From NCBI RefSeq assembly GCF_038502225.1, contig NW_027197008.1, forward strand, positions 1 to 64,000: a stretch of 64,000 nt of DNA, read 5' to 3'. The position numbers and the translations under genes are program-made. The first letter of the stretch is position 1. Each line of letters begins with the position of its first letter. Positions 43,470 to 62,151 of this stretch are shown one piece after another. The DNA comes from Cherax quadricarinatus. Its lineage: Eukaryota > Arthropoda > Malacostraca > Decapoda > Parastacidae. The notes beneath the pieces were generated by a model, which did not search any database, was not told the DNA's origin, and was given only the letters and a program-made list of their open reading frames with translations.

Positions 43470-44827
43470 AAAAAAAACTAATGTACTGATATACATGATT
43501 ATAGGGCGATTACCCTGTTAAACACTGACTATAAATTATATGCAAAAATTTTGTGCAATCGCCTTAAACCCATCTTAGAGAAGGTTTTACATCCAGGTCA
43601 AGCTGGTATCCCGGGACGATCGCTGTATTTAGGCCAAAAGGTACTTGGTGATTTTGTTCGCGTCCACCAAAGTGAAATGGGTAGGGGGGAGGGATTTTGG
43701 TGTTAGACTGGAAGGCTGCATTTGATAACGTTGATCATCTTGTGTTGAAAATGATAATGGAGCAGCTGGGTTTCACATGAACGATTGTTAAGTGGGTTAT
43801 GTCTTTGTATACTGACGCGAGTTTGCGCGTCCAGGTAAACGGGAAGTTAGGTACGTCCGTATGTTTGCATCATGGGATTCGCCAGGGGTGCCCGTTATCA
43901 CAAATTTTATTTGCTATTTATCAAGAGCCATTATATTGGGCACTGGCAGCCAGGTGTGAGCAGAATTCATGTAATGGGCAGTGCAGTAGGCCTATCCATA
44001 TTGTTGGCTATGTTGATGATACAACGCTCATGCTTACAGATGCCGGTAGTTTGTCTGCCGTAGATCATATTGTGTACTAAGGATAAGTCTGGACTCTTAC
44101 TTTTAGGGCCGTGGCAACGAGGTCCATTCTCCGTGGAGAGTCCGTGGGTTGTGCGTGAATCTTTGGAAATATGCGTGATAATTCAGGCGGCTAGTAGAAC
44201 TGAAGGACATGCGCTCAATTCCAAGATGGTGGTTGATAACGTTATCCGGCGTGTCGGTATGCTAAGGTTACATCAGCGGGTGATAGTTACTAATTACATC
44301 CTATATGCTAAAGTGAGGCATGTAGTGCGTGTGTCCTTGTTGTGTCCAAGAGATGAGACACGTTTATTGGTGCATGTTTTTCGGTTTATCTCGGGAAGTC
44401 GTTGTTGCTGGTTACGACGCAGTGTGCTTAGTTTAAGTGTTCGCAAGGGGGGTTTGGGATTATTAGATTTTCATGCATCAATGCTTGCTCTTTTTGGCAA
44501 GCATACATATGTGCAATACCTGCGAGTGGCAGGTAATCCAGTTAGTGAGACGTATCAATACCTGTGCGAGTGTGTTAAGGGGAGTGATCGCCATATATGC
44601 GTGGATATGTTGCGCGTGCTTACAGTGGTTTCAAATCCGCGGGCGTGAAAATTGAATATTTTAGTTTGGGTGACTATGGAAGCTGACGTGGCACCGGTCT
44701 GTAGTCAGTTTCCGTTGTACACTTGGGCTGATAATTGGAACCGTCTCGTGGATCTTCCGTTGCGACCCGTAGTTCGTGAAACGGTATATAAATTCTTTCA
44801 TAACATCTTGCCGTCCGGGTCTGTTTT
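43470..44827 (+). mobile_element. Tx1-C LINE fragment interrupted by the Polinton
   Basis: A plus-strand piece covering the RT palm to near the ORF2 end: YRAITLLNTDYKLYAKIL and PGQAGIPGRS (about 43,500-43,620), HGIRQGCPLSQILFA and VGYVDDTTLML (about 43,865-44,040), then the C-terminal region (44,070-44,827) with several frame breaks. Similarity to the other Tx1-C copy ends at GTCTGTTTT (44,819-44,827), where the Polinton terminal repeat begins. Confidence 0.8.
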
Positions 44828-45643
44828 TTGGTCGATCTAGGAACACTGCCGGATAATGACCATGGAAAATGAGATAATGATGGGGTCTGTATGACCTTAG
44901 GGCTGACAGGGTAATTGTTTAATATGATTAATCATGCCCCAAGGGGATAGAGAGACTTATTCCTATACATTAATAAGTAGGTACATAAAGTAGAACAAAG
45001 GATTCGGGTGTGCAGGTGGCAGATTCCGGGATAATGAGTGTGGAAAAGAATGTGATAATGGGTGGTCTGCATAAGCACAGGTGCTGTCAGGGGGTACAAG
45101 TTTAATATGTTTAATCATCCCCCCAAGGGGATAGAGAGATTTATTTCTGTGTAATTACTAAGTATAAGAAGGTAGGTAATGATCACTTCTGACACCCCAA
45201 ACTCAATCACTCTGATAGATGGGGGAGGCAGTACAAAAAAGGATTCAGGTGAGCAGGTGGGCAGATTCCCAGGATAATGAGTGTGGAAAAAGAATGTGAT
45301 AATGGGTGGTCTTCATAAGCACAGGTGCTGTCAGGGGTACAAGTTTAATATGTTTAAACATCCCCCAAGGGGATAGAGAGAGAGAGGCTTATTTCTGTGT
45401 AATTACTAAGTATAAGAAGGTAGGTAATGATCACTTCTGACTCCCCAAACTCAATCACTCTGATAGATGGGAGAGGCAGTACAAAGGATTCAGGTGACTG
45501 GGTACAAGCTTACCATCTCCGAGGGAGTCCCCCCCCCCCCTTCCCGGGGCTGCGACTCACTGACGCGACTGTTGCTACTTCACAACAACACTGCTGGGTT
45601 TAAAGAACGCGGTAATGGATGGGTAGCTGGTCCCCCGAGGGAG
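44828..45643 (+). repeat. Polinton left terminal inverted repeat
   Basis: 816 bp matching the right end in reverse complement with only short indels and scattered substitutions. It contains a motif family repeated about three times at roughly 200-215 bp spacing, each unit holding CCCAAGGGGATAGAGAGA, TAATGAGTGTGG-type and CACTCTGATAGATGGG words. A unique inner part (about 45,490-45,643) contains a C run and GCTGCGACTCACTGACGC. It is the presumed protein-primed replication origin. Confidence 0.92.
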
Positions 45644-46056
45644 TGTTGCTCGCCCGTCCGTACCTCAGCAAAAAAAAAAAAAAAAAAGGTTCTTCCGGGT
45701 ACTACGGTAGTGTTTATTCTTGCCAGCTGCTAGATCTTTCCAGGTGGGGGAGGCTTAAAGCAGTGAGAAAAGGTCATCTAGGGAAGACCTTTGTGCTGAT
45801 AGAGCTCTTATAGGAACTTTGACATATACATTTTCCTCTTACCCACTCTCAGATGGGGAGAGGCTTAAGTGGTGCGATATTGTTTATATATATATATATA
45901 TATGTTTAGACTAGAGAAGATAGTAATATATAGTTATATGTAAATAAAAATCAGAGTTTGTCAATATTTTTATTAATTCACATACAAAAGGGCAAAAAAA
46001 GCTGTGCAAAGTTTTTTAGCGCGAGCAAAGGGGCGAAACTGTGCGAGTTTTACTGG
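45644..46056. other. Non-coding spacer between left terminal repeat and first gene
   Basis: Holds an A run (45,670-45,687), a short TA tract (45,884-45,903) and AT-rich sequence with an AATAAA-like signal for the minus-strand gene near 45,960-45,980 (read in reverse). No open frame worth calling. Confidence 0.5.
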
Positions 46057-46992
46057 TTAGACTGAATGACTGCGCTCCTCCTGTTCACTTTCTGTAAGAT
46101 TGATAACCTCCCGCTCGAAAATGATTTCCTTTTCAGGTACATCATCTGCCTTTACACCGTCTGCGGTCTTTACCCCTTCTGCTGGCTTTACTGCGTCTCC
46201 AGCATTTACTCTCACGTCGGAGGTTTTCCCTTCCTTCTCCGACTGACCGTCAGGGTGCGCTTCAAGGTCGCCAGTTTGTTCAGCACCTGCTGCGGCAGTG
46301 ACCTCAACAGAGTCATCAGATTGAGCAGTATCGAGCGTAGAGAGGTCCACAACGAGGTCATCAGACTGACATGAGGGAAGGCTCTGCGTTTCATCGTTGT
46401 CGAGATCTGGTTCTTTCTTCATAGGCTCCTCTATATCAGATGAACTGATCCCATCTTCCACAGGCTGTAAGTCATAAAGAGAACATATTTATCACTTTCA
46501 AATAAAGGAGTGGGACTCGTCTCTAATCTACCAAAGGAGGGAACATAGAAAGACATACCCTTTCCTGAGGAAGTCTATGTTTGCGTTTCCTGCTATCATC
46601 ACAATGACACCGCTTTAGGAGTTTGAAGCCGGTGTGTTCCTTCCCTTCCAATCTACCAGCCGATAAAATCAAAACTTTACAAATTCTGACTGGCCCAGTG
46701 AAAACTGTTGAAGAAAAAAAAAGGAGACTCAACTTTAAAATTATTATAAGTCTCTTGCGCTCGTTTTGTTTCGTTAATATTCAAAGAGAAGTATCCAATC
46801 TACCAGCCGATAAAATCAAAAACTTTACAAATTCTGACTGGTCCAGTGAAAACTGTTGAAAAAAGAGACTCAACTTTAAAAATTATTATAAGTCTCTTGC
46901 ACTCGTTTGTTTCGTTAATATTCAAAGAGAAGTTTTTAGCAAAATAAAATGTCTCGCTTACCAGAATCGAGAATGTCTGCTTCCTTCACCAT
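46057..46992 (-). CDS. Polinton accessory acidic protein, three-exon gene, unknown function
   Basis: Predicted exons: 46,962-46,992 (ATG at 46,992, donor GTAAGC), 46,559-46,644 (donor GTATGT) and 46,057-46,464 (acceptor TTACAG). Phases agree: 31 + 86 nt is 39 codons, and the third exon opens in frame. The second exon encodes a basic patch (SRKRKHRLPQER) suggesting nuclear entry. The third encodes about 135 residues rich in Asp, Glu and Ser with no recognised domain, resembling an activation or scaffold region in composition only. A TATATAAG box lies 68 bp upstream of the ATG. The second acceptor is the weakest point: it is purine-rich and sits at the edge of a tandem duplication. Function unknown. 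Confidence 0.55.
46648..46932. repeat. 148-bp tandem duplication in the first intron of the acidic gene
   Basis: CCAATCTACCAGCCGATAAA starts at 46,648 and again at 46,796; the two units are nearly identical to about 46,932. On the minus strand the unit includes the candidate acceptor region of exon 2, so a second, slightly altered acceptor exists upstream. Confidence 0.9.
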
Positions 46993-47059
46993 GATGAGAG
47001 TAAAAGGCTATGGAGAGGTCAGCCTCTATCTTTTGCGGGGAAGACAGCTTCAGCGGGCT

Positions 47060-47067
47060 CTTATATA
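47060..47067 (-). promoter_or_regulatory. TATA box (TATATAAG) of the acidic gene
   Basis: TATATAAG on the minus strand, 68 bp before the ATG at 46,992 and about 55 bp after the protease stop. The same octamer precedes the ATPase gene. Confidence 0.6.
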
Positions 47068-47119
47068 CAGCTCAGAGAGGGCCTTACCAGCCAGGAGGGG
47101 TATTTGGGGGATACTCTCG

Positions 47120-47698
47120 TCAGAGGTGACCTTCCTCACAGAGGGAAGCACAAAGATAACCTTGTCTACTTAGGCAAAATGTATTTTCACAAGGAGGTAA
47201 CATTTTAAAATTCTCTCTAGCATATGCTATCACTAATCTGTCATTGATAAAAAGCGATTTTTCCGAGAAATTTTTTTTAAAAAAATATAAAGCTCTTTCT
47301 AATCCCACAAGGCTTGCTTTATGAATAAACATCATAACATATAGACCGCAAGTGAGTGAAAAATCACTTTGTGTTCTGCCAGATAAACGATATAAATATT
47401 TAATTTTATTTAGTTTAAAATTTTTTTTTAAATTTATGCCATAATTCTCTGGTTTTTTCCCGTAACTGTCAAAGAAGAAGGATAGACTATTTTTCTTGTC
47501 CAAGAGAAGAGAAAAAAAATGACCCATTACTTTTGAGCTGTACGAAGGAAGAATATTACTTACAAGCACTATGGGCCTGTCTGAGGGATAGTCATCTAAT
47601 CTTATTTGCTGTAGAGCGTCTATAGTGAAACAGCCAATATATGTGACTTTATTTCCTAGGGCGGGAATTAAACTATTATTTATTTCTGCGCAATTCAT
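47120..47698 (-). CDS. PRO: Adenain-like cysteine protease (Polinton PRO)
   Basis: A 192-residue protease of the adenovirus endopeptidase/Ulp1 clan (C5-like), expected to cleave capsid and core precursors during particle maturation. The catalytic series is visible in order: His60 in MGHFFSLLL, Asp77 in FFFDSYG, Gln110 in GRTQSDFS and Cys117 in LTCGLYVMMFIH. The length matches adenain (about 200 residues). The ATG at 47,698 follows the major capsid stop by 7 bases, so the two may share a transcript. The Cys-rich C-terminus (CENTFCLSRQGYLCASLC) is unusual. The match is by motif; I am confident of the family. Confidence 0.9.
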   Translation of the reverse strand: MNCAEINNSLIPALGNKVTYIGCFTIDALQQIRLDDYPSDRPIVLVSNILPSYSSKVMGHFFSLLLDKKNSLSFFFDSYGKKPENYGINLKKNFKLNKIKYLYRLSGRTQSDFSLTCGLYVMMFIHKASLVGLERALYFFKKNFSEKSLFINDRLVIAYARENFKMLPPCENTFCLSRQGYLCASLCEEGHL

Positions 47699-47705
47699 TT
47701 TTTAT

Positions 47706-49067
47706 TTATGCTCGCACATCACAATGAACAGATCTATTCTGGTCGATGGATAAAACACCAGTGGTCTGAGCAAATAATAAAACTACCTTATTATGAGGGG
47801 CGGGCTTAGAGAACTGTAATTCAATTCTCAAGTTACCAGATTTTTCAATCGGGAGAGCGTCTTCCACTTGGCTGTCGGTTAAATTGAAAATATTGATGGT
47901 TCGCCCGGAGGCGAATGATTCATAGAGAATTAAATTTTCTTCCTCAATGCCCAGAGAGTTAATTGCCTCATAATATAATTTACTATAATGATGGGGGAAA
48001 TCACTGCTTATGCGATAAACTGTATTATTATTAATACATACAGATAAACTGGCTAGATCCCCATGCTCAAAATATAGACCATTCTCCTTATGTTTTCCTG
48101 CATAGGCTGTCATGGGCAAAATTACCATGAAAATTTTGGCGGGAATTACATGACCCCATGGCTGATCTATTAGGAGGCTCGTTTGATTGTGACCTAGCAC
48201 ATAATTTTTACTTAGAGTGCGATTAAAAGTATATATTATCGGCTTTGCGTCTAAGGCTAGAGACTTGTTCAAGGCCATATAAGCTGATGTATATGGGTAT
48301 ACCCTATTAAGCCACAGTTTAGCGTAATTAATATGGAGCTGGTATGTGCTGGCATCATCGTCTGTTTTCAGAGTCCACGCTTGAGGGGATAATTCCAGCC
48401 TAATTTTTAAATCGATATTGTCAAGCAGATATTGGTCCAGAGTGGATATGTCCAGAGCCAAGGGAAAACACAGAGTTATGCCCTGTTCTTTATCATTCTT
48501 TGTCAGTATCTGTGGTTCTTTTGCCGATGTGCGGGCGAAATAGGCTGTATCGAACAATTTAGTTATACCTTCTCCTCCTTTAAAGTCGGGCAAGAGATAC
48601 CCCAGTCGGGCGATACTCGGCAACTGGCTTCGTTTTACTGAGCTGCAGAGTTTAATGAATGACCAGTAATTAAAACTAGAATTTGTTTCCGTTATTTGCT
48701 CGCCCAGGAAACACTGGACACTTTTAAATAACGTGTTGGAAAATCCATTGATCAGTGCAATGTTGCTTGTTTCCCCTAGTGGACTTTGCCCATCAGCCTC
48801 TGTTAGAGTCACTCTAAATTCTATAACTATTTTGCCTAAATCTAGAAATGCTCCGGGAACTCCAGGAATTCTAAATTCTAGAAAATTATCTTTTAGTTTT
48901 TGAGAGAGAGGAAGGTTTACTGGTAGAGTATCAAAACTCTGAGTGCGAGCTATGGAACTCTCAACTTGTCTCAGTCTATGCGGTCGCGGGAATTGATTAA
49001 TGACGCTGGAAGAATAATCATTTAACGGGACTTTGAGTCCACTGTTTTCAGCCCCGACACCCGCCAT
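47706..49067 (-). CDS. MCP: Major capsid protein, double-jelly-roll type (Polinton PY)
   Basis: 453 residues from the ATG at 49,067. Position (between minor capsid/core genes and protease), size and sequence texture match the Polinton major capsid protein, which forms pseudo-hexameric capsomers. Recognisable family-like segments include LEFRIPGVPGAFLDLGKIVI near residue 70, FNYWSFIKLCSS near 130, RLGYLLPDF, and YSKLYYEAINSLG near 375. Beta-strand-like alternation runs throughout and there is no signal peptide. The TAA is followed by ATAAAA and the protease ATG. The fold is assigned from family knowledge; structure prediction would confirm two jelly rolls. Confidence 0.8.
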   Translation of the reverse strand: MAGVGAENSGLKVPLNDYSSSVINQFPRPHRLRQVESSIARTQSFDTLPVNLPLSQKLKDNFLEFRIPGVPGAFLDLGKIVIEFRVTLTEADGQSPLGETSNIALINGFSNTLFKSVQCFLGEQITETNSSFNYWSFIKLCSSVKRSQLPSIARLGYLLPDFKGGEGITKLFDTAYFARTSAKEPQILTKNDKEQGITLCFPLALDISTLDQYLLDNIDLKIRLELSPQAWTLKTDDDASTYQLHINYAKLWLNRVYPYTSAYMALNKSLALDAKPIIYTFNRTLSKNYVLGHNQTSLLIDQPWGHVIPAKIFMVILPMTAYAGKHKENGLYFEHGDLASLSVCINNNTVYRISSDFPHHYSKLYYEAINSLGIEEENLILYESFASGRTINIFNLTDSQVEDALPIEKSGNLRIELQFSKPAPHNKVVLLFAQTTGVLSIDQNRSVHCDVRA

Positions 49068-49084
49068 GGCTAATAAGCAACTGT

Positions 49085-49516
49085 TTATACGAGAGAGAAT
49101 ACATCCGTTTTATAAGCAACTCGGCTTCGTCGGCGTTTATTTAACTTGCATTTATTATTCAGCCGTCGCTTAGTCACCCTGCTTACTCTGCCGCCCGTAA
49201 TAACCTTCTTTGCAACACCTTTTAAAGCATCTATCCCGTGAGATTTAAGAGCAGCTTTCATGTCTGTTTTTCCAGACTGATAATCATCGAGCATTTTAGT
49301 TCCAAATTCTACTGCACTTGGCGCAGCCACTCTGAAAAGAAAAGGTAAAGCTCTTTTAGCTAGGCCCGCTAAAGCCGAAAAAAATCCCCCACCTCGGACT
49401 CTGTATGGCGCGTGAAAAGTTTGTATATCTCCCAGACCACCTCCCACCTGGGAGGGTTTTAGGGAGAATAAACTCCGAAATTCCTGCTCAGAGGGCACTT
49501 GAAAGGGTACACGCAT
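49085..49516 (-). CDS. Small basic pVI/core-like protein with GG processing motifs
   Basis: 143 residues, strongly basic at the C-terminus (RRLNNKCKLNKRRRSR). The middle has GGGFFSALAGLAKRALPFLF followed by a predicted helix and a KSHGIDALKGVAKK segment, a pattern widespread in Polintons and reminiscent of adenovirus pVI/pX precursors. A VRGG/G site at about residues 39-43 resembles an adenain cleavage site (hydrophobic-X-Gly-Gly), so the neighbouring protease may process it. It lies 18 bp upstream of the major capsid ATG in the transcript direction. The role (membrane lysis, DNA packing or both) is inference. Confidence 0.65.
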   Translation of the reverse strand: MRVPFQVPSEQEFRSLFSLKPSQVGGGLGDIQTFHAPYRVRGGGFFSALAGLAKRALPFLFRVAAPSAVEFGTKMLDDYQSGKTDMKAALKSHGIDALKGVAKKVITGGRVSRVTKRRLNNKCKLNKRRRSRVAYKTDVFSLV

Positions 49517-49562
49517 GTTTGGCGGTTAGAGAAACAATAACCATTTTTACGCAGAGTTGGTT

Positions 49563-50441
49563 CTATTTATTTATCGGTCTTACATGTAACACTACGGTAG
49601 TGGAATGACCGCTTTCAAAAGACAGATTACGACCAAACTGATCTGTCATTTTGATAGCTATTTTATCTAATTTAGTTACGCATAGAGGTTTGTACATCAT
49701 AGGATGAGCACCTTTTGAATAACTCTCCTGAAAGGCGAAAGCATCCAGAATATTGACTAACTGACTACCGTATATTTGCGGTTCCACAATATCACTATAT
49801 ATTAAAACATAATCAACTCCGGCAGTGGGATCAGGTTTGAATGGGGCAATCTGCTTGGGGAAGGAGGTCCCCTCGGGCGCGTCACTACGAAATAAATAAT
49901 ATTTTTCAGCGCTGCTAAGCCCAAGCACCCGAGCTATTCTCGGTTTAAATTGAGCTTTAAATGAAGTGGCAGCATTGTTTTTTCCCGTAAAGGTTCGCGA
50001 TCTCGTCGAAACTAAAACCCTCCCAATTCCGACATCATAATTGAGTATTTTCCCTTTCGGGAAATGTGCCGAATAATTATCTCTAAAGGCTTTTTTTAAA
50101 TCTGCTGTTAGCTGTCGATTAATTTCTTCAATAATATGGCTGGCATCTGTCGATAACACATCATTTTTTGGTAGAAAGTGATGGACTATTTCTTCTGTAC
50201 TTATTCCTGTTTCAGTAATGTGATTTTGTATAATGTCAATACCGCATTCGGCATCGTCTCTTGTTAGAACATTGAATTTTTTGGGATACAAAACATTAAG
50301 CAAGGCTATTTCGTAGTTCAAGGATGGATTTAAAGGCGTTGCAGTAATTATATTTTGAAAGGCCGAAGCTGTATTGTCGAAAATGTCAATATTTTCTAAA
50401 CTGCTCAAATAGATATATTTCCCCGGACCCCCTCTGTCCAT
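49563..50441 (-). CDS. mCP: Minor capsid protein, penton-type single jelly roll (Polinton PX)
   Basis: 292 residues from the ATG at 50,441. The C-terminal block VDYVLIYSDIVEPQIYGSQL, then YKPLCVTKLDKIAIKMTDQF and a VVLHVRPI ending, is typical of the Polinton minor capsid protein that occupies the five-fold vertices. The N-terminus (YIYLSSLENIDIFDNTASAF) is also family-like. An A/T-rich TATATATA stretch lies about 50 bp upstream (near 50,490-50,500). The gene is intact; assignment is by motif memory and gene order. Confidence 0.8.
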   Translation of the reverse strand: MDRGGPGKYIYLSSLENIDIFDNTASAFQNIITATPLNPSLNYEIALLNVLYPKKFNVLTRDDAECGIDIIQNHITETGISTEEIVHHFLPKNDVLSTDASHIIEEINRQLTADLKKAFRDNYSAHFPKGKILNYDVGIGRVLVSTRSRTFTGKNNAATSFKAQFKPRIARVLGLSSAEKYYLFRSDAPEGTSFPKQIAPFKPDPTAGVDYVLIYSDIVEPQIYGSQLVNILDAFAFQESYSKGAHPMMYKPLCVTKLDKIAIKMTDQFGRNLSFESGHSTTVVLHVRPINK

Positions 50442-50532
50442 GTTGAGGGACAGAGACAGTATGAGGCAAATACAAAATATAGACCATTATATATATTTTT
50501 TAAAGGCTTAAAAAAACTTTAGTTTGAAGAGT

Positions 50533-51525
50533 TTACATTTTTATTTTTTTATTAGTTACAGCATTTAGGAATAAAATATCCACATCATCGTGCTGTCGTT
50601 TGCGTTTTCCGCGTGAAGTGACCTCGACTCCATCAGGCATGTCCATTTCACGCATGCCACTGTCTCGTTTAGTTCCAATCCCACCGGCTGGTCCGACGTC
50701 AGCACCGTTGACACCGCCGCTGCTGCTGCTGCTGCTGTTGCCGCTGCCGCCACCGGCACTGCTGCCACCGCTGATGCTGCCAGTGCCTTGCTTCTCCACA
50801 GACAGCTGTAGTATTTCCCGTTCTAGAGCTTCGGGGGAGGCGCCGCGTTCAATTTCCACCTCATCTAGGATGATTTTAGGTACTGCCAAGTATGGGCTCA
50901 CTGACGGTACGAGCAAGCATGTCTGAATTTCCCGTTTCAGTAATATGTCTTGAAATATGTTAATGAGAGGGAGATATTCAGTGTGCCATTCATCGGCCTG
51001 TTTTCTGCTCATGCCAATGTACTGGGGTAAAATTACCCGTTTGATGTTGCCATTGGCTATCACCGCCCGTCCCAGGGACACCAGACATAATTTAAACCAA
51101 ATTCGTCGATTCTGTTGCGTGTCCTTGCTCAAACCGCGTACATAATGCGTGTCGAGACTACGCTCTAATTGCTGTTGCGCAATTTCATTCTTTTCAAGAC
51201 AAGGACCCGCTGAGAACTGACATATTAGTGCTGCAAGGTGGGGTCTTAAAAAATCCTCTGGCCTGTCATCAAGGGTGTTGGTGCATGGTGGGGGTGATTT
51301 TAGGACAATTTCCCCGGGTGTGCCCCGATCTGCAGCTATGGCACGGTTCACCAGGATTAGCGATTTTCGCTCAATTTTGGAAAAAGGATATTTTTCCCAG
51401 AGTGAAAGAGCCGGCTCGTAGGGGCGAGCAGAAGTAGCGTTGTGGGGATACACGATACAATCCCCATATTCCAGGAATTCTTCACCCGTTATTCCCCCGA
51501 CAATTACTGGAAATTTATATTCCAT
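50533..51525 (-). CDS. Macro-domain-like protein with low-complexity basic tail (candidate)
   Basis: 330 residues from the ATG at 51,525; the longer frame would use TTG. Residues 1 to about 215 follow the macro-domain plan: a GDCIV-type first strand, TPGEIVLKSP, LAALICQFSAGP, then a helix (RRIWFKLCLVSLGRAV), VILPQYIG, and a final helix and strand (EWHTEYLPLINIF, QTCLLVP). Macro domains bind or hydrolyse ADP-ribose marks. The usual NAAN and GGV loop residues are not obvious, so catalysis is doubtful. The tail is Gly/Ser-rich (CTG/GCC repeat DNA, about 50,700-50,780) and ends in RGKRKRQ and NKKIKM, nuclear-signal-like. A TATTTAAA lies about 80 bp upstream. I do not know of this as a standard Polinton gene; the call is tentative. 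Confidence 0.45.
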   Translation of the reverse strand: MEYKFPVIVGGITGEEFLEYGDCIVYPHNATSARPYEPALSLWEKYPFSKIERKSLILVNRAIAADRGTPGEIVLKSPPPCTNTLDDRPEDFLRPHLAALICQFSAGPCLEKNEIAQQQLERSLDTHYVRGLSKDTQQNRRIWFKLCLVSLGRAVIANGNIKRVILPQYIGMSRKQADEWHTEYLPLINIFQDILLKREIQTCLLVPSVSPYLAVPKIILDEVEIERGASPEALEREILQLSVEKQGTGSISGGSSAGGGSGNSSSSSSGGVNGADVGPAGGIGTKRDSGMREMDMPDGVEVTSRGKRKRQHDDVDILFLNAVTNKKIKM

Positions 51526-51605
51526 TCTCGTCAACAGTTGGGTTCCTTAGAGTCCTCGCTGAGGGAGTGAGACGGATAATGTTTATCGGTACGTCGGCGG
51601 CGGGG

Positions 51606-51613
51606 TTTAAATA
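51606..51613 (-). promoter_or_regulatory. TATA-like box (TATTTAAA) of the macro-domain-like gene
   Basis: TATTTAAA within a GC-rich context on the minus strand, about 80 bp before the ATG at 51,525. Confidence 0.45.
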
Positions 51614-51673
51614 CCGCGCTGCTGTAGCCTCCCACTCCTGCGGGTGGGTTTGGTAGGGGTTTGGGGGACCTCT

Positions 51674-52048
51674 CTAGGTCGACATTCGTCTAAGGTGCTT
51701 ATACAAGCTTTGGGCCCCTTCAAAAGCTTCTATCATATCCCGGAAATCATGCGTAGCATATTCTAAGCGTCTGATTTCAGCCGTCAGTTCTTTCTGATTA
51801 AAATTGTCATATAATTTTTCAATTTCATCAAAAGTCTTAGTAAATCTGGTCATGGGGCAATTGACTTTGAAGGATTCGTAGGTTTGCCATAAACTTTGTA
51901 TCACACGAGCTTTGTAACACACTTGCTGATAAATCTTTCGTCTTGACGTTAATTGATGTAATAATATCGACAAACTGGGGTCCTTTTCTCCTTCTTCATT
52001 CAACGGGAGATTAATTCTCTCGGGATAATCAACTGATGGCTGGTCCAT
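51674..52048 (-). CDS. Polinton small helical protein, unknown function
   Basis: 124 residues from the ATG at 52,048, predominantly helical with coiled-coil-like heptads in the C-terminal half (FDEIEKLYDNFNQKELTAEI). No known motif. The ATG is directly preceded by a run of about 14 A on the coding strand. It lies between the macro-domain-like gene and the Gly-rich protein in the leftward block. No function can be assigned. Confidence 0.55.
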   Translation of the reverse strand: MDQPSVDYPERINLPLNEEGEKDPSLSILLHQLTSRRKIYQQVCYKARVIQSLWQTYESFKVNCPMTRFTKTFDEIEKLYDNFNQKELTAEIRRLEYATHDFRDMIEAFEGAQSLYKHLRRMST

Positions 52049-52162
52049 TTTTTTTTTTTTTTTATGAATAGCACTTCGAGAAGGAACTTCTTGTCTCTAT
52101 CCTGTCCCGGTATTTACTAAAGCGGGCAAAGCTCTTCTCTCGACTTTATGAAAGCTTAAATT

Positions 52163-53092
52163 TCAATAGGCTAGCCAGAGCGGCTTTTTTTCCGCGGTCT
52201 TTTTAACATAAAAACCGCCTAATAATTGTTTTCTCGCCTTGTGATTTTTTATAAATCTTGGCTCTAATCTAATAAGGCTCACTAATTCCCCTACAACGGG
52301 CAAAAGTTTTTTATCGATGTACGCTCGACTGCTTGTCAAAGATTTAATGATTTGTAAGATGTTTAAATTATGGTATGGAGGGAATAAAATACCTCTCTTA
52401 TCCCACCGAATGAAAGAATTATTCTTGAATAGATTCAGCATAGATTTCGCGTATGGCAATTCTTCTCTCGTGAAATACAGATCAATTATTTCATTTAAAT
52501 TTGGGGAAGAGTCCTCAGGCGAGAGAGAAAGACTGTTGTTTTTTCTTGATATTAAAGATAAAAGTATTTCCGGCGGGAGTTTATTATTATTGGCTATTAT
52601 TTTCTGTTTCGGATTTTTTTTTTTTTTACTCTTAGACTCCTCGCGGCAACTACCGCGGGCGCGCCCGCCACCGCAGCCGCCGCAGCCGCCGCCACTGCCG
52701 CCACTGCCGCCACCGCCGCGGGCGGCATTACAGCGAGCGAGCTTATTTTTTTTTTTTTTTTTTATGGGGGACTCACCAGTCTCAACAAAGAGCTCGGGTG
52801 GGTGCCCGCTCGTGGGAGGTGGTAGCTCGAAGCGGTAATTACCCTTATGAGGGCGAGTTGCTATGCTGGGGCAGGAGCTGACCTTCTCATCCTTGCTTTG
52901 GGCTGGTTTCACTTTCACTCTCGAGAGGCTGGAAGATTCCTTCCTACGCGCCATAGTGGTGGTTGCAGTGCTTCTGCGAAGGCGGGGAAAAGGAGATTCG
53001 CGCTTAGGAGTGGGTAAGATATTTGTTCCATTTTTAAAAATATATTTTTCGGCGGTTAGCCGAGGGATGAGACAAAATTCCTTTACCACCAT
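52163..53092 (-). CDS. Polinton conserved protein with Gly/Cys/Lys low-complexity linker, unknown function
   Basis: 309 residues from the ATG at 53,092. The N-terminus (KEFCLIPRLTAEKYI) and the C-terminal region (KRGILFPPYHNLNILQIIKS with later SLIRLEPRFIKNHKARK) resemble, from memory, the two ends of a small protein common in animal Polintons. Between them is a long insert with KKKKKNK, a Gly/Cys-rich stretch from GCC-type repeat DNA (about 52,660-52,735) and a second Lys run. An internal ATG (MARRKES, about 52,954) is an alternative start, but the conserved N-terminus argues for 53,092. Function unknown; a basic DNA-binding or scaffold role is a guess. Confidence 0.6.
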   Translation of the reverse strand: MVVKEFCLIPRLTAEKYIFKNGTNILPTPKRESPFPRLRRSTATTTMARRKESSSLSRVKVKPAQSKDEKVSSCPSIATRPHKGNYRFELPPPTSGHPPELFVETGESPIKKKKKNKLARCNAARGGGGSGGSGGGCGGCGGGRARGSCREESKSKKKKNPKQKIIANNNKLPPEILLSLISRKNNSLSLSPEDSSPNLNEIIDLYFTREELPYAKSMLNLFKNNSFIRWDKRGILFPPYHNLNILQIIKSLTSSRAYIDKKLLPVVGELVSLIRLEPRFIKNHKARKQLLGGFYVKKTAEKKPLWLAY

Positions 53093-53104
53093 TTCGATTA
53101 TTTT

Positions 53105-53446
53105 TTACTTTATAAAACTACTAATCAGCGAGATGACCAGAGGTAAGAGTGTAGTTAAGATGGCTCCTCCACGCTTCGAAAGAAGAATATTTTTTTTTTT
53201 ATAAAGTGGAGTTCGTTTACGGGCAACGGTGAGAATGTCTCCTCTAAACTTCTTTAATTTGCTCAAAATAGTCGGTTCTACTGTTAGATTTTTCTTAAGA
53301 AAATTAGTAAATATCTCAGATATGCAATTAATTTCTTTTTTTTTTAATTCCTTAATAATACGATTGCGAGCTTTAGCTGGAAGTTTGTTTAATAAAATTA
53401 ATAACTCTCTGTGTTGCACTGCTAGGGGCTTACCCCTGTCTGACAT
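53105..53446 (-). CDS. Polinton conserved small protein with C-terminal GG motif and hydrophobic end
   Basis: 113 residues from the ATG at 53,446; an upstream in-frame start at 53,482 lies inside the integrase gene and is less likely. The N-terminal half is helical and basic (LLILLNKLPAKARNRIIKEL). The C-terminus has NILLSKRGGAILTTLLPLVI, matching a pattern common in Polintons and adintoviruses: basic residues, GG, then a hydrophobic helix. The GG may be a protease site and the helix membrane-active; both are inference. It overlaps the integrase 3' end by 17 bp. Confidence 0.65.
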   Translation of the reverse strand: MSDRGKPLAVQHRELLILLNKLPAKARNRIIKELKKKEINCISEIFTNFLKKNLTVEPTILSKLKKFRGDILTVARKRTPLYKKKNILLSKRGGAILTTLLPLVISLISSFIK

Positions 53447-54557
53447 TTTGCATGTCCTTCTCGTGCACCCAGCTATCTGCACTTCGGGGATAACCCACCC
53501 AGCTCACCAGATATTCTCTACTGCCGTCAGTTTTTCTTCTCCGTCTCAATATTTTAATGGGAAAAAATTCAGGTAGAGATGTTTCTATTAATTCCTGAGC
53601 GTAAAATTGCCCGAGTATTTTTTCCCCGCTCAGGTCGATAAGAGAATATGTGGGGATTACTTGCGAATTATCAACCGATTGGATTTTAAAAATTTCTTCG
53701 GTGTTTTGAGGCCAATAACTCTTGTGAAATATCCCCCGGTGGCTAGTTATCCGCACATGCGCTCCAGGAGTCAGTCGTGGACTAGTACGAGGCTGATGAG
53801 GACGGGCATTTAAATACATTAGCCCAAACTGCCGACGAATGTCTCGAGGAAGACTCAGAGAATGCACTTGTTGTGGAGTTTGACCTTTCTTGAGAGAGGA
53901 GTGAGGAGTTGAGTTGTAAGTTTCTACTATGGCTGGTAATACCTCTATATATTTTAAAGAATTTGTTAAAGTCATATAGCGGTAGATTCTATGCTTAAGC
54001 GTGCGAATAGCTCGTTCCGCTATTGCAGCCTTAGTGTCCGAGAAGGTACTGTATAATTTAATATTTTTTTTTTTTAGGTAATTCAGAAGAGGACGATTAT
54101 AAAACTCGGTCCCTCTGTCCGTGTGTAATCTCGAAATTCCACGGAAGGTGGGGCTTTCTATAATATTTCGTAAGGCTGACAAGACGCTTTTTGAGTTTTT
54201 TCTGACTAGTCCTACCGCCTTCATTAACCTTGAAAAGACATCTATGCATAACAAAATATATTTAATGCCACCATTGTGGGAATGTAATAAAGTCATGTCC
54301 GCCAAGTCGCAGGTGAGTATAATGCGAGGGGCAGCGGCTATGATTTTCCGTCTGGGAAATCGCAGAGGCTGCAATTTATGCAAAGTATAGGCCCTCTGAG
54401 AAGAGAGATAATCTACTACGTCTTTATAAGTAATAGAGGCGTTTTTCTCCCTAGCTGCTCTAAAAAGTTTGTTAACATTCCCAGTAAAGCCCCCGGGGCT
54501 ATTGACGTCTCTATATACTTTTTCTAGAATTTTCTTTTTATGTGAATTTAAGGCCAT
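53430..54557 (-). CDS. INT: Polinton retroviral-type integrase with chromodomain
   Basis: 375 residues from the ATG at 54,557. It inserts the element into chromosomes by strand transfer at the terminal repeats. The DDE catalytic triad is visible: Asp84 (LTCDLADM), Asp147 (LHTDRGTEF) and Glu181 (AIAERAIRTLK), with the Asp-to-Glu spacing typical of Polintons. The C-terminal chromodomain (RRRRKTDGSREYLVSWVGY, about 335-370) would read chromatin marks and steer integration. The N-terminal zinc-binding HHCC module is not evident. It overlaps the following small gene by 17 bp and starts 8 bp after the ATPase stop, so INT and ATPase are probably co-transcribed. Confidence 0.93.
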   Translation of the reverse strand: MALNSHKKKILEKVYRDVNSPGGFTGNVNKLFRAAREKNASITYKDVVDYLSSQRAYTLHKLQPLRFPRRKIIAAAPRIILTCDLADMTLLHSHNGGIKYILLCIDVFSRLMKAVGLVRKNSKSVLSALRNIIESPTFRGISRLHTDRGTEFYNRPLLNYLKKKNIKLYSTFSDTKAAIAERAIRTLKHRIYRYMTLTNSLKYIEVLPAIVETYNSTPHSSLKKGQTPQQVHSLSLPRDIRRQFGLMYLNARPHQPRTSPRLTPGAHVRITSHRGIFHKSYWPQNTEEIFKIQSVDNSQVIPTYSLIDLSGEKILGQFYAQELIETSLPEFFPIKILRRRRKTDGSREYLVSWVGYPRSADSWVHEKDMQNVRQG

Positions 54558-54565
54558 TTTTGTTT

Positions 54566-55222
54566 TTACCAGCGGTATACAGTTTCACAGTTGCCCTCTC
54601 CGGTAATGAAGCTTCGTAATTGAATTTCCTCTGGAGCGGTTAAATCAACCAGAAGATAGCCGTATTTATCCGCAGTGACGTGACGATATATCTCAACAAA
54701 TTTCGGGGCTAGATTTTTTCCATAAATTTGTCGCCCGAGACATTCCAACTGAGACAGATCTCGTTGTCTTAATAAAATATATTGACTACAATTAAGCGTG
54801 ATCGTGCGAGCGTATTTTCCTTGTGGAAATAAATTTTGAGATATGAGAATTACGGATATTTGCTCGTGTCTTCCTCTAGTAAAAATATTAGCTATAACAT
54901 CACTCTTAACTGCTTCATTAAAAAGGTCATCAATTATATACAGAGAGCTATTGTCTGTCTCAAGGGGATTTTGGTAATCCGCCGGGTTAATGAGACCTTT
55001 CACTAAAATGATTTTCTCACTAAGAGAGGTGATTTGTTTCAAAGGGTGAGTTTTATCATCCAGACTGGAAATGATTATTCTCGCGAAAGAACCGGCATAT
55101 TTTTTACATAAACGCTCCACTAGACTGCTCTTGCCTGCCCCGCTAAAACCAGCAACAAGTATTCTTGCAGGCTCTCTGAAAATATTCAACTCTTCCTCTG
55201 TAAAGGTACAGACCTTGTCCAT
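54566..55222 (-). CDS. ATP: FtsK/HerA-type genome-packaging ATPase (Polinton ATP)
   Basis: 218 residues from the ATG at 55,222. It would pump DNA into the capsid. Walker A is GFSGAGKSS (25-33) and Walker B YIIDD (95-99), followed by SVILISQNLFPQGKYARTI, the sensor/arginine region conserved in adenovirus IVa2-like and Polinton ATPases. It is the first gene of the leftward block. A TATATAAG box at 55,261-55,268 lies 39 bp upstream of the ATG, giving a very short leader. Confidence 0.92.
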   Translation of the reverse strand: MDKVCTFTEEELNIFREPARILVAGFSGAGKSSLVERLCKKYAGSFARIIISSLDDKTHPLKQITSLSEKIILVKGLINPADYQNPLETDNSSLYIIDDLFNEAVKSDVIANIFTRGRHEQISVILISQNLFPQGKYARTITLNCSQYILLRQRDLSQLECLGRQIYGKNLAPKFVEIYRHVTADKYGYLLVDLTAPEEIQLRSFITGEGNCETVYRW

Positions 55223-55260
55223 CTTCCCATCTCAAATGAGCCTTTTTGTGGAAGAATCAT

Positions 55261-55268
55261 CTTATATA
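55261..55268 (-). promoter_or_regulatory. TATA box (TATATAAG) of the ATPase-integrase block
   Basis: TATATAAG on the minus strand, 39 bp before the ATPase ATG; identical octamer to that of the acidic gene. Confidence 0.6.
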
Positions 55269-55896
55269 TAAACATTTCTTTTTAGTTCAAAGCAGAGGGG
55301 AGGGAGGGGGGAGTTTATCCCGGAGATGAAGATAACAATGGCGGCATGGCCTTCTCCCGCCAGAAGACCATAGAAAAAAAAGCCCGACCGACAGTGAAGG
55401 TCGTCTGGATATTACGCAGTTTCACTACCTTCCCTACGCCAGGTGGTGGTGGGTCGAATGGAGGTCACAGACAAAGAGAAGCAGGCCCCGCCACTTTCTG
55501 CCGGCTGATGCCTATTTATTTTTATTTTGGGGAAAAATATATTATTATTATTATTATTTTTAAGAATATTTAGTTTTGGCAATGGTCAGAATCTATAAAT
55601 TAATTAATTAATCTTTCCCTCGCCTCGGCTTTATACAAATGGGAAATTCACATGACTATGGCAATTTACGTAATCCTCCCTACTTGCCCGGTCTAAATTC
55701 TTATTTTTTCGTTCGGGAAAAGAGTTCTTCCCAGATTTTATCCCTCTTACTTTATTGACAATAAGAAATCTTTTCTAGATTATATTTATAATATATAGAC
55801 TTGCAGGGATTTTTGTTTAAAAGATTCTCGTGAAAATAGAGAGAGACTGATGTGAAAAACTGTACCTCTACTTTGGGGAAAATTAAGCATCTTATG
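55269..55896. other. Divergent intergenic region, no gene seen
   Basis: Lies between the leftward ATPase block and the rightward polymerase. AT-rich, with an ATT repeat (55,541-55,558). A 75-codon plus-strand frame (55,346-55,573) has no recognisable features and is not called. Confidence 0.5.
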
Positions 55897-55957
55897 AGCA
55901 CGCTATCCTAAAAGCGTGCTATAAATACGCTCACCTTTTCGTCTAGGGCGAAAGGTG
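55897..55957 (+). promoter_or_regulatory. PolB promoter: TATA box flanked by two hairpins
   Basis: TATAAATA at 55,920-55,927. A perfect 8-bp inverted repeat, AGCACGCT/AGCGTGCT (55,897-55,904 and 55,913-55,920), ends on the TATA box. A second inverted repeat, CACCTTTTCG/CGAAAGGTG (55,932-55,941 and 55,949-55,957), covers the expected transcription start. A donor-like CAG/GTAAAA at about 55,999-56,006 and an acceptor TTTACAG before 56,091 suggest a short 5' UTR intron. Confidence 0.55.
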
Positions 55958-56093
55958 CTCTTCCCGCTCACTCAAGAAAGTTACCAGCTTAGATTAGAGC
56001 AGGTAAAAACTTCTCTATCTATGGGAGATTAAAATATTATCTATAATTTAAATAATTTATGGAATATGAGAGTGAGAGTGTGTATTTACAGAT

Positions 56094-59000
56094 ATGACTC
56101 GTCACCCAGCTCGCAGATGCCACCTATGCGGGCGATTATACCCTCAGGATGCAGCTCACCACACTTTCTCCTGTAGTTTCTGCGGGCTATCAGTGTGTGT
56201 AGCGAATGTCACAGCTCATCGCAGGAGATGCGTGACAGGTGAGATTACCAGGTTATTGCTCTGAATTGATGTTTTCTTAAAACTGCTATTTTCAGATAAT
56301 GAAATAAGTCTTTGAGCTAATAATAATTTTTTCCAACAGTTGGGGCGGGGCAATACTCCAAGCAGATGATCCGGGGGGCGGGCCAGGAAGAAAGAGGTCA
56401 GCGCTCTTTTCTTAATCAATTATTTTTATTAACAGTCAAACATTTTTAAGATATGTTTATAAAGTATCTCACTAACAAGAATAAAAATCATTTTGAGAAC
56501 CGCATATATTCCATAGATTGCTTAGCTTCTCCCAGTTTTATACTTTAACAGTAACATTTTTTTAAAAGATTGCTCGAGTTATAATTAGTCTAGTATGGCT
56601 CTAAAACAAAATAATAATAAATAACTTTCTCTAATTATATTATGCAGATCAGTCTGTGTCCTCCGATGAATCTTCGACCGTAACACTCCCACAAGAGCAA
56701 GTTGAGCCGATTGCCGGTCCCAGTGGATGGAGACCAGCCGCCACAAGTGACAGCTCCTCTTCCAAGGATCATTACTACTCTTTCTTGGGTTCCCCCTCCT
56801 CTGCTAATCGAAGGTTCACTTCAGGTAAAAAAAATTTTTGTTCAGATGAGGAAGAGAGTGAAATGGGAGACGATTCCATTTCAGAGGAACCACACATTAC
56901 GAGTCGGTCGGAATGTTTTCAAGGTCACTTCTGTCGAATAAAATATTCAATTCCTGCCTCTCATAAACACGACCCCATATTATTTCTTCAGTCCTTCGCA
57001 ACAACATTTATGAGGCACATATTACAGTTTTTCACTGTTCTATCAGGACGAGCACTTTATGAAAATGCTCTTAGGATTTATGCCGAACTGAGCCTTATTT
57101 TGCGCAGACAGTCGCTACTGGGAGAGGATGACAGTCGTGAGCATTATATAACTTTTCCCGCGCAACTAGTTACACGAGATGATATATCTCGGCTCTTACG
57201 GTCATGGAGGGAGTACCTTAGCATGCGATTAGAAACTGAAATTTCATCGGGCGAGGGATCAGGCTTCATACTAGATTATATAAAGGGTTTTCATATTGTA
57301 ATATGCAAGAATGGAGTGCGTGGATACCTAGGAGACTATATAGAATATCCCACATCTTTACGAGGGAAAAATCAGATATTTAACCCGAGAGGAGTAAAAA
57401 ATAGCTGTTTTATTCAATGTCTGGCGGCCTTTTTCTGTCGTAGACTTGGCTGGGGCTGGTATAAAATCAGACGATATTTATCTAGATGTGATAGCCTTCA
57501 GAAATTTGTCAATTACTCGCGAGTGACTCTCCCTGTCCAGTGGAGTGACATCCACAAACTCGAGTCTGACAACAAAATATCAATATTTATTTATTGCTTA
57601 ACTTCTCATGAAGGGACCTATCATGCTACTTTATGTCGTAGGGGTAGTAATAAATATTCACTGGTAGTGCCCCTGTTATTGTTGGGAAAGACTCATGTAG
57701 CTTTAATCAAACACTTCCAGAAATATATGAGAATTTTCTCCAGAAAACATTCACGCAATAAGCACTTTTGCTTGAATTGTTTAAGTGAATATAGTGACAT
57801 TTGCAACTTAAAAACTCATTTCAATTCATGCGACAACCAACAAAAGTTGATTTTTCCCCCAGCTGGAAGCGTTTGTAAATTCAAAAATACTCACAAGGGC
57901 TACTTGCCCTCTCATACTGCCTTTGTGGATTTAGAAGCTTATCTCGATAATCGTAAGCCAGAGGGGGTAATAACAGCTAGACACGTAGCAATAGCTTATG
58001 GCTATATAGTGATAGACAGAAATAGCACTATAATAGATAGATATGTCCATCGGGGGGTACAGTGTATTGATCATATGTATGATAGACTTTCGTCTTTATG
58101 GGATTGGATAAAGATGAACACTCCCTGTTATCCACTTCATATGACCAGGGAGCAGCATATACATTTTGCCATACAGAAGAAGTGCAACTTCTGTCATCAG
58201 GACTTTACTCTTACCAAACCAAAGGTGAGGCATCATGACCATCTAATGCCTAAGGCTAATTATTTAGGAGCACTCTGCAATAATTGCAATTTAAGGCAGA
58301 AAAATTCAGGTAAATATTTGCCTGTTATTATTCATAACCTATCATATGATATGGCTTTGATAATTAAAGAACTAAGTGTTAAAGCCCCAATCAATGTTTT
58401 AATGAAACAGGGATATAAATTCCTAAAGGTAGAAATAGGAGCACTACGTTTCCTGGATAGTCTAGCCTTCTTGTCCGCTGGTTTGGCTAGTTTGGCTCAG
58501 GCGCACATAGCTTCAAAATCACCCTTGAAATTCACAGAGGCGATGATAAGTCATCTACCCCCCGAAAGTTGGGGATGCTTATTAACCGGCAAACAAGTGT
58601 TTCCTTATGAATATTGCAGCTCCCCAGAAAGGCTCGAAGAGAAGACTTTACCCCCAAAAAGAGCTTTCTACAGTTCTCTGTCTAAGAAGCATATTAGCCA
58701 AGAAGAATTCGATCATGCTCATCTGGTTTGGGAGAAAACAGCTTGTCAAACTCTAGGAGACTATCTCCTAGTATATCTCAGCTGTGATGTAGGACTTCTG
58801 GCTGACATATTCACCTTGCATAGGAGATTATTATACAACATCTATAATCTAGATGTTGTTCACTATGTTTCTCTCCCCGGCTTTGCCTATGATGCCTTCT
58901 TAAAAACCAGTGGAGTGGAATTAGAATTAATTACTGATCAGGAGCTTTATAACATCATACAGTCTAATATAAGAGGCGGCTTCACTACTGCTGTTAGGAC

Positions 59001-60627
59001 GTTTGCTCAGGCCAATAACCAGTTCATTAATCCCAATTTTGATGAGAAAAACTTAGTAAGTAAATTTTTGCTATACTGGGATTTTAATTCTCTTTATGGT
59101 TCTTGCATGACTGAGGCGCTGCCCTACGCAAACATTCGAAAACTCTCACCCGCAGAAATGGCGAGTTTTCTCGCAAATGGCGGTCTTCTCCAGAAGAATC
59201 CTCAAGACTCTATAAAAGGTTACTGGCTTCTTATAGACACTCTAGGAATAGCCCCAGAATTAGCTCGCTACACGGATGACTTACCACTATGTCTCTATCA
59301 CAAACAGATAACATTAGATGATCTATCTGAGTACAGCAAACAGCTATTGGCTATCAGTAATCAAAAACTACCCCGTAAAAATACTAAATTAGTGGGGGAC
59401 CATCTCCCCAAACGAAACTACCTAATATCATTGCCTTTATTGCAGTTGTTCTTGGAGATAGGTCTACAAATTGAGAAAATTCATAGCATATATGAATTCT
59501 CACAAGGAAAATATCTGGCGGGCTTTGTTGAAACGAACGTGAGGCAACGCAATAGTAGCACTAGTAAAGACTGTCAGCGATTATTTAAATTGTTGACCAA
59601 TTCTGTATTCGGCAAGACATTGTTTAATCCATCAAAATATGCCAACAAAACGAAGCTCATAACATCAGCAGGAGCATTTTTGCGAGCGGTGAGTAAGCCA
59701 CTATTTAAGAAAGCCATAAAGCTTTCAGAAAACAAAGTATTGGTTACGACGGGGACGCCAGCCATAAAACTCACTTACCCTAATTACATAGGTTACCAGA
59801 TACTAGAACTTGCCAAATTTAAGCTGTACCATTTTTGGTATATGATTCTTAAGAAAACATACCAAGACAAAATAAAACTAATCTATTCAGATACCGATAG
59901 TGTCATCGCCTGTTTAGAGGGCATCAAAAACCTTACTGATGAAATCGGTAAGGAACCATTGAGGAAATGGATAGACACATCTAATTTCCCCACAGATCAT
60001 CCTCTCTACAATGACTCAAGGAAGGGATCTCTAGGCTTACTTAAAAGTGAGGTGGGGGACCGCCTTATTTCAGAAATAGTCTGCATTAAACCCAAAATGT
60101 ATAGCATCCTGCTAGCAGATAATAACAACACTATCGCTGCAAAAGGAGTTCCTCAGTCTGAACAACAATTATTAACTCATAATAACTTTAGAAGTGTGCT
60201 GGAAGACGGTTCTAAACATACCTTCCAATATAGTCAAATTAGAAATTTAAAAGGTCAGATGACCACTATCACCACTAGGAAACGAGGTCTTAGCTCATTT
60301 GATGATAAGCGCTTTTACTTAGATGCCTATCACTCTGTATCCTATGGTCATCCAGATGCCAGAGAAACAAAGTTTAAATTATTTAAAGATAAAACAGATG
60401 ACAAAGTGGAGGAAGACGAAGAAGCTAATAGCAGTACTGAAGAAGGGAGTACAGAAGAAGAGGAACTAGAGATGAGAGACAGTTGCAATCTTTGGCGGGG
60501 AAGAGAAAAAACCGTAAGAGATTTTTTCCCCAGGGTCAAGCATCGACGCGAGAGAGGTAGATCTTCCGCCACTGCTCGTAGTTTCATGCTCTTAGAAGCT
60601 AGCTGTTCTGAGGGAGAGGAGGAATAA
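56094..60627 (+). CDS. POLB: Protein-primed family B DNA polymerase (Polinton PolB), spliced
   Basis: Predicted exons 56,094-56,238 (donor GTGAG) and 56,648-60,627 (acceptor ATGCAG); phases match. Exon 1 encodes a zinc ribbon with CHLCGR, CSFCG and a C-terminal AHRRRC. Residues below count from base 56,656. Exonuclease: FVDLEAY (423-429), NLSYDM (561-566), YLSCDVGLLAD (707-717). Polymerase: motif A DFNSLYGSCM (809-818), motif B TNSVFGK (about 980), motif C YSDTDS (about 1,077-1,082). Before the exonuclease lie a zinc finger (CLNCLSEYS...HFNSC, 372-392) and an HNH-like block (CNFC, VRHHDHL, LCNNCN, 510-544). The acidic tail ends near an AATAAA. It replicates the element from a protein primer at the terminal repeats. 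Confidence 0.92.
56340..56396 (+). other. Possible 57-bp cassette exon in the PolB intron
   Basis: Within the 409-bp intron, an acceptor (TTTTCCAACAG) at 56,339 and a donor (AAGAG/GTCAG) at 56,397 bound 57 bp (19 codons) with no stop, in the same phase as the outer exons. Inclusion would insert 19 residues without changing the frame. Entirely a splice-site reading. Confidence 0.3.
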
Positions 60628-61046
60628 AACAATGTAATGTTAACTAATAAATATATTTGCTAAGAGAGACTTTTTTGTTTTCACCCTTTGAAAAATTAGG
60701 TTATTATCCTTTTTCACACAGATGCCCCCGATGTAGCCGGAGAGCGGGCGCAGGGCTGATAATCACACCCGATGACCTCCAAAGAAGCAGGCCCGCCGCA
60801 ACACTCCATCAGAGACCCCAGTCACCTGAATCCTTTGTACTGCCTCTCTCTCCCATCTATCAGAGTAATAGAGTTTGGGGAGTCAGAAGTGATCATTACT
60901 CTACTTCTGTTCCTACTTAGTAATAAGACTCTCTATCCCCTTGGGGGATGATTAAACATATTAAACTCCTACCCTGTCAGCCCTAAGGTCATACAGACCC
61001 CCCATTATCTCATTATTTTTCCATGGTCATTATCCCGGAATCCGGT
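60628..61046. other. PolB 3' flank and extra terminal-repeat unit
   Basis: AATAAA at 60,623-60,628 overlaps the polymerase stop codon, and a second AATAAA lies at 60,646-60,651. 60,652-60,824 shows no supported gene; a short frame with a CPRC motif is not convincing. 60,825-61,046 is an additional diverged copy of the terminal-repeat unit, including the terminus-specific word TCCATGGTCATTATC. Confidence 0.7.
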
Positions 61047-61851
61047 TCCCTCGGGCGACCAGCTGCCCATCCATTACCGCGTTCTTTAAACCCAGCAGTG
61101 TTGTTGTGAAGTAGCAACAGTCGCGTCAGTGAGTCGCAGCCCCGGGAAGGGGGGGGGGACTCCCTCGGAGATGGTAAGCTTGTACCCAGTCACCTGAATC
61201 CTTTGTACTGCCTCTCCCATCTATCAGAGTGATTGAGTTTGGGGAGTCAGAAGTGATCATTACCCTACCTTCTTATAATTAGTAATTACACAGAAATAAG
61301 CCTCTCTCTCTCTCTATCCCCTTGGGGGATGTTTAAACATATTAAATCTTGTACCCCTGACAGCACCTGAGCTTATGAAGACCAACCCATTATCACATTC
61401 TTTTTCCACACTCATTATCCTGGGAATCTGCCCACCTGCACACCTGAATCCTTTTTTGTACTGCCTCTCCCATCTATCAGAGTGATTGAGTTTGGGGTGT
61501 CAGAAGTGATCATTACCTACCTTCCTATACTTAGTAATTACACAGAAATAAATCTCTCTATCCCCTGGGGGATGATTAAACATATTAAACTTGTACCCCC
61601 TGACAGCACCTGTGCTTATGCAGACCACCCATTATCACATTCTTTTCCACACTCATTATCCCGGAATCTGCCACCTGCACACCCGAATCCTTTGTTCTAC
61701 TTTATGTACCTACTTATTAATGTATAGGAATAAGTCTCTCTATCCCCTTGGGCCATGATTAATCATATTAAACAATTACCCTGTCATGCAAGACCCCATC
61801 ATTATCTCATTTTCCATGGTCATTATCCGGCAGTGTTCCTAGATCGACCAA
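61047..61851 (-). repeat. Polinton right terminal inverted repeat
   Basis: 805 bp, the inverted match of 44,828-45,643. It ends CAGTGTTCCTAGATCGACC plus AA. It lacks a short segment present on the left (about 44,886-44,896), while an extra internal copy of the repeated unit lies just inside it at 60,825-61,046. Confidence 0.92.
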
Positions 61852-62151
61852 ATTACATAGGTCACACTACACATACATGTACAAGCATATATATACACAC
61901 CCCTCTGGGTTTTCTTCTATTTTCTTTCTAATTCTTGTTCTTGTTTATTTCCTCTTATCTCCATGGGGAAGTGGAACAGAATTCTTCCTCTATAAGCCAT
62001 GTGTGTCGTAAGAGGCGACTAAAATGCCGGGAGCAAGGGGCTAGTAACCCCTTCTCCTGTATATTACTAAATTTAAAAGGAGAAACTTCAGTTTTTTCTT
62101 TTGGGCCACCCCACCTCAGTGGGATACGGCTGGTACATTGAAAGAAGAAGA
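61852..62151 (+). repeat. LINE/SINE 3'-end repeat (decapod-type)
   Basis: Contains GTCGTAAGAGGCGACTAAAA and GGGCCACCCCACCTCAGTGG followed by GATACGGCTGGTACATTG, a tail related to the RTE 3' ends at about 25,700 and 31,310. I recognise the block from memory as common in decapod genomes. It forms the right flank of the Polinton and shares nothing with the left flank. A short TA tract follows at 62,152-62,167. Confidence 0.5.

Follow-up and report, generated by a model that had tools for sequence, protein, structure and literature searches.

The element described here raises the question of whether a Polinton with capsid genes, found among tens of relatives in one genome, can still move and spread as a virus. 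The existence of such virions was put forward in 2014 (PMC4028283), and by 2021 none had been seen, according to PMC8097293. The window, i.e., the whole stretch of 64,000 nucleotides that was analysed, is part of contig C2082, which is 71,434 bp long and one of the 7334 contigs that make up a genome of 3.95 Gb. It holds one member of a young family of Polintons (Mavericks), which are virus-like dsDNA elements of endogenous kind, and we consider it likely that this family spread, at least in part, as particles. The pattern described below fits a virus that makes particles or has recently made them.

Gene content of the element

With a length of 17.0 kb and terminal inverted repeats of approximately 0.8 kb, the window copy has the dimensions of a Polinton (15–20 kb with terminal inverted repeats). 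Collinear pieces of the two repeats are 95–100% complementary. The repeat comparison and the list of frames agree with the earlier note, which had described such repeats and long open frames. Its span of 44828..61851 correctly located the element; the limits have to be moved to about 44827–61857, and both ends fall short of those of the siblings. Ten or more frames run leftward on one strand, while the DNA polymerase (PolB) runs rightward on the other. In the direction of leftward transcription, the order is ATPase, integrase with chromodomain, 125-aa, 309-aa, 124-aa and 333-aa genes, candidate penton, 143-aa gene, major capsid protein (MCP), protease and an acidic frame (Table 1).

Table 1. 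Features of the Polinton in the window
Feature	Position	Strand	Basis or remark
Polinton element	about 44827..61857	.	17.0 kb, both outermost ends missing; end comparison with 30 siblings
Left inverted repeat	about 44827..45642 (repeat alignment from 44822)	.	Holds internal 248-bp tandem unit
134-aa open frame, acidic, GTG start	46057..46461	-	Uncertain gene; no match in Pfam
Putative adenain-like cysteine protease, 192 aa	47120..47698	-	Weak Peptidase_C57 match; MCP-adjacent also in second family
MCP, double jelly-roll (predicted), 453 aa	47706..49067	-	AlphaFold model and structure comparison
143-aa basic protein	49085..49516	-	Second family: 110-aa frame in same place
Candidate penton (minor capsid) protein, 292 aa	49563..50441	-	Position and second-family relative
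333-aa accessory protein, unclassified	50533..51534	-	Sequence, Pfam, AlphaFold
124-aa accessory protein, unclassified	51674..52048	-	Open frame; Pfam search
309-aa protein	52163..53092	-	Second family: 178–179-aa frame in same place
125-aa basic protein, hydrophobic C-terminal tail	53105..53482	-	Second family: 120-aa frame in same place
rve integrase with C-terminal chromodomain, 375 aa	53430..54557	-	Pfam rve E 8.3e-9, chromodomain 1.3e-6
A32/FtsK-type packaging ATPase, 218 aa	54566..55222	-	Pfam Pox_A32 E 2.8e-7, above cut-off
Family B DNA polymerase (PolB), presumably of protein-primed type	56656..60627	+	1323-aa open frame, start uncertain
Right inverted repeat	61047..61857	.	Repeat comparison

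The earlier note had credited the element with every core Polinton gene. This holds for the integrase, the ATPase, PolB and the MCP; for the protease there is a weak match to Peptidase_C57 in Pfam (E 0.0064, below the curated cut-off). PolB is recognized by a DNA polymerase family of PHROG (E 7.7e-9), and no polymerase family of Pfam matches it at E ≤ 0.5. What we take to be motifs A, B and C are visible by eye in its translation. An OTU-like domain at the N-terminus, as described for the PolB of adintoviruses (PMC11071308), is a reading by eye against that description. NCBIfam matches the integrase to insertion-sequence transposases, gives weak P-loop matches for the ATPase and returns nothing else. 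PDB searches by sequence yielded no relevant match for PolB, the protease or the MCP.

The capsid assignment of the 453-residue protein is based on its predicted structure. Comparison of the AlphaFold model (pLDDT 80) with known structures gives a double jelly-roll fold, which answers, for this one protein, a check proposed by the earlier note. The best match of the model in BFVD is R9XLG5 of Cotesia sesamiae Mombasa bracovirus (E 3.9e-22, 17% identity), with a poor global superposition (TM 0.34), and Foldseek also retrieves a protein of Adintovirus sp. (E 2.4e-19, 11% identity). The nearest named relative in sequence comes from Procambarus clarkii (56%). Together with the TTAGG-type repeats and the size of the genome, this points to an arthropod host, probably a decapod. 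The neighbouring 143-aa basic protein, judged by eye, we take to be pVI/pX-like. For the 292-aa protein, a role as penton is probable, since it lies one gene away from the MCP, where the penton is placed by PMC4028283, and a second Polinton family has a 32–33% relative at the corresponding position. A PDB profile search with this candidate gave no relevant match.

Nine frames surrounding the element were scanned, and for six of them the matches are to LINE-type families of reverse transcriptases or endonucleases. They had been described as decayed, which is contradicted by the LINE at 34520–37117 of the window: its 865-aa frame is open and matches both endonuclease and reverse transcriptase. 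Elsewhere in the window, a 183-bp unit is perfectly duplicated in tandem (22629–22997) and a 39-bp unit is repeated 6.2 times (40259–40500).

Siblings of the element and the state of the window copy

As to further copies, for which the earlier note had proposed a search, the genome holds dozens that are nearly identical. Searching it with the MCP gives 94 matches, 88 at 91–100% identity and six, from the second family, at 40–41%. Among 1171 PolB candidates, the best 35 were scored, and all 35 are full length (1323 aa), 99–100% identical and free of stops. The recurrence of the same genes and ends tens of times is well beyond chance.

The ends were read in all 31 copies for which both are listed, leaving out 11 single-end loci. 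In the 30 siblings, a motif of the (AGT)2//(ACT)2 type, which has been reported for vertebrate Mavericks (PMC8097293), is found at 60 of 60 ends, with its first base altered in one. An exact 6-bp target duplication flanks 16 of the 30 siblings, where approximately 0.007 would be expected by chance; one of the 16, on C90, is ambiguous, since its duplication equals the end motif. The other 14 may be recombinants or assembly chimeras. Contig size makes a difference: of 18 siblings on large contigs, 13 have the duplication, whereas on contigs under 400 kb it is present in 3 of 12.

Among all 31 copies, truncation is confined to the window copy, where it affects both ends. It has neither the end motif nor the 6-bp duplication, unlike the family at large; these absences are read as secondary loss, which makes the copy a truncated member of the Polinton family. 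On the left, the junction falls within a LINE. The sequence up to 44830 is matched at 39 other places, and all four that were read further carry on as LINE sequence. This LINE sequence was not found in the 2.1 kb to the right of the element. The right flank is a different repeat, with 39 other places, 38 of which match from 61855. Since the ends are missing, there is no target duplication and the flanks come from two different repeats, the integrase is unlikely to move this copy, and the earlier suggestion that it may still be mobile is not supported. Its proteins might act in trans.

The copy may have arrived by a joining route that trimmed its ends, or have been rearranged, or be partly an assembly chimera. 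In the last case, two or more siblings would have been joined inside the repeat, so that flanks and mixed ends do not represent one natural insertion. We regard this as possible, at somewhat less than an even chance: the contig is small, siblings on small contigs lack the duplication more often (see above) and the two ends find their best matches in different sets of siblings, but a misjoin within the element alone does not explain a truncation at both outermost ends that is unique among the 31 copies. An origin by end joining, or a rearrangement, is probable, and the copy would now be stationary with its genes still open.

Selection during spread and the case for particles

Variants were grouped by the number of copies that carry them, which allows selection acting while the family spread to be told apart, inside one genome, from the decay of copies once they are inserted. 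The MCP set comprises every match that covers at least 452 of 453 residues (n = 60), after 34 rows (28 partial, six from the second family) had been dropped; five of the 60 copies contain stops. Counting variants, which are not independent tree events, those private to one copy comprise 51 nonsynonymous, four stop and 27 synonymous changes, with a dN/dS of 0.70 that is not different from neutral (p 0.13). The ratio falls to 0.29 for variants in two copies (nine nonsynonymous, two stop, 13 synonymous), is 0.30 for those in three to nine copies (13 and 15) and reaches 0.08 for those in ten or more (6 and 25; p 2e-10). The contrast between the private class and the class of ten or more is strong (Fisher p 6e-6) and persists when the five stop-bearing copies are removed (p 2e-4). 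The protein of the window copy is common to eight copies, itself included, and the seven others differ from the window copy by silent bases only, 4–9 in each. The MCP is thus shown to be under purifying selection in the lineages that spread. As private variants are nearly neutral and shared variants are purified, the lineages that spread needed the capsid protein, and decay follows insertion.

The ages of the copies bear on whether this spread continues. In the tree of the 60 MCP copies, the median terminal branch is 0.0015 substitutions per site and 29 of the 60 are at most 0.001; seven copies have MCP DNA that recurs unchanged in one or more of the others, which makes five identical pairs. 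With a substitution rate between 1e-9 and 1e-8 per site per year, this median corresponds roughly to 0.15–1.5 million years. Recent activity, which the earlier note had inferred for this copy, is upheld for the family, given its near-identical copies, the exact duplications at 16 of 30 siblings and the purified MCP. That the family is an extinct invader, with young copies and no lineage moving today, is in our estimate quite improbable. Near-neutral private variants are what copies decaying once inserted should display, and the window copy is truncated, yet the identical pairs and the very short branches argue against it.

Three further genes were compared in 28 copies, an incomplete and partly hand-picked set, which for the candidate penton and the 143-aa gene consists of the window copy, seven high-scoring siblings and 20 chosen for variety. 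An MCP ratio of 0.06 over 28 copies was set aside as evidence because those copies score best by MCP protein. The 143-aa gene is constrained too within this incomplete set: variants shared by at least three copies comprise six nonsynonymous and 14 synonymous changes (0.16), and private ones three and 14 (0.08). For the candidate penton, the variants shared by at least three copies are too few (three and four; 0.25, p 0.07); private ones amount to 12 nonsynonymous, one stop and 15 synonymous (0.29), and three of 28 frames are broken or partial. A clear difference between the private and the shared class was seen in the MCP only, as private variants of the candidate penton and the 143-aa gene look purified too. 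The protease is without constraint, with 12 nonsynonymous and two synonymous variants shared by at least three copies, and seven nonsynonymous, one stop and no synonymous private ones, which weakens the simplest virus model. In Mavericks of cyprinids, by contrast, constraint on the protease is reported to equal that on the rest of the core genes (PMC8097293).

These data bear on a transposon that multiplies intracellularly only, keeping its capsid for a job inside the cell or as part of a replication–integration machine and releasing no infectious particle. We judge this unlikely. It would account for an unconstrained protease, an enzyme expected to mature particles, whose frame is broken in six of 28 copies, and for the outcome of the IMG/VR scans, in which no free relative was found. 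Many of the protease variants lie in A/T runs, though, where sequencing error is a plausible source, and the constraint on the MCP in propagating lineages, together with the retention of the ATPase and the penton candidate, speaks against it.

Under the favoured reading, in which the family spreads at least partly as particles, PolB would replicate the element by protein priming and the chromodomain integrase would insert it. The MCP and the penton would assemble into particles loaded by the ATPase; we infer packaging of the element.

Accessory genes and comparison with known systems

The 333-aa gene looks like an accessory gene of an exchangeable kind. Searches of protein databases with its product returned only a 99% copy, and the AlphaFold model of the protein alone is uninformative (pLDDT 34). 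A reading as a macrodomain, suggested by a resemblance in motifs, was rejected: no Pfam family matches at E ≤ 10, and PF01661 occurs at three places in the genome, none of them at genes of the 333-aa type. Beyond the Polinton copies, at least 26 places in the genome encode a 34–35% relative, and 25 of these 26 are without stops. Four of these loci were fetched (L031, L032, L034 and L035), and the last three lie in large palindromic repeats. The repeat at L032:2397-7442 carries two genes related to the 333-aa gene; the second, of 205 aa, aligns over 160 columns (hhalign E 1.5e-4) with a probability of only 51%. PDB sequence searches with the 333-aa protein and both L032 relatives gave nothing relevant. 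The L032 unit has TAACC/GGTTA arrays (TTAGG-type, i.e., telomere-type) on both sides; the sequence fetched around L031, L034 and L035 showed no such arrays. Endogenous nimaviruses of crustaceans insert into this type of repeat (PMC10871703).

A more far-reaching proposal is a DNA virus that exists today and integrates into the genome of a decapod-like host. Particle spread would select the capsid, copies would decay after insertion, intact siblings would perhaps provide the protease in trans, and the accessory gene would have been exchanged with a separate palindromic repeat, which has telomere-type flanks in one copy and contains two diverged relatives of this gene. We put this forward tentatively, as doubtful in its entirety. 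With its tens of near-identical copies, most of them open, this genome of a living arthropod-type host is a good place for a particle search.

Other groups in the same genome can be compared with this family. The second Polinton family (L029, L030) has the same order of integrase, 120-aa, 178–179-aa, penton-like, 110-aa, MCP and protease genes, while its MCP is 40–41% identical and the 333-aa and 124-aa genes are absent from that place. It accounts for the six distant MCP matches, and its MCP and integrase frames are open. The protease search detects 27 further matches at 29–30% identity, all open and with near-equal scores (e.g., C28:27278101-27278604), which probably represent a third, recently multiplied Polinton-like family.

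With adintoviruses, the window element shares the rve integrase with C-terminal chromodomain and, judged from domains and the fold model, an MCP of the hexon-type double jelly-roll (PMC11071296). With vertebrate Mavericks (PMC8097293), it has in common the gene set, the size (a mean of 16.9 kb versus 17.0 kb here), the end motif of its siblings, the intact copies in some hosts and, for the cyprinid elements, purifying selection on core genes including the MCP. It differs from them in its arthropod-type host, the ten or more leftward frames opposite PolB, the 333-aa gene and the unconstrained protease. The kind of Polinton is already known from those vertebrate elements; what is found here is many young open copies of it in an arthropod-type genome.
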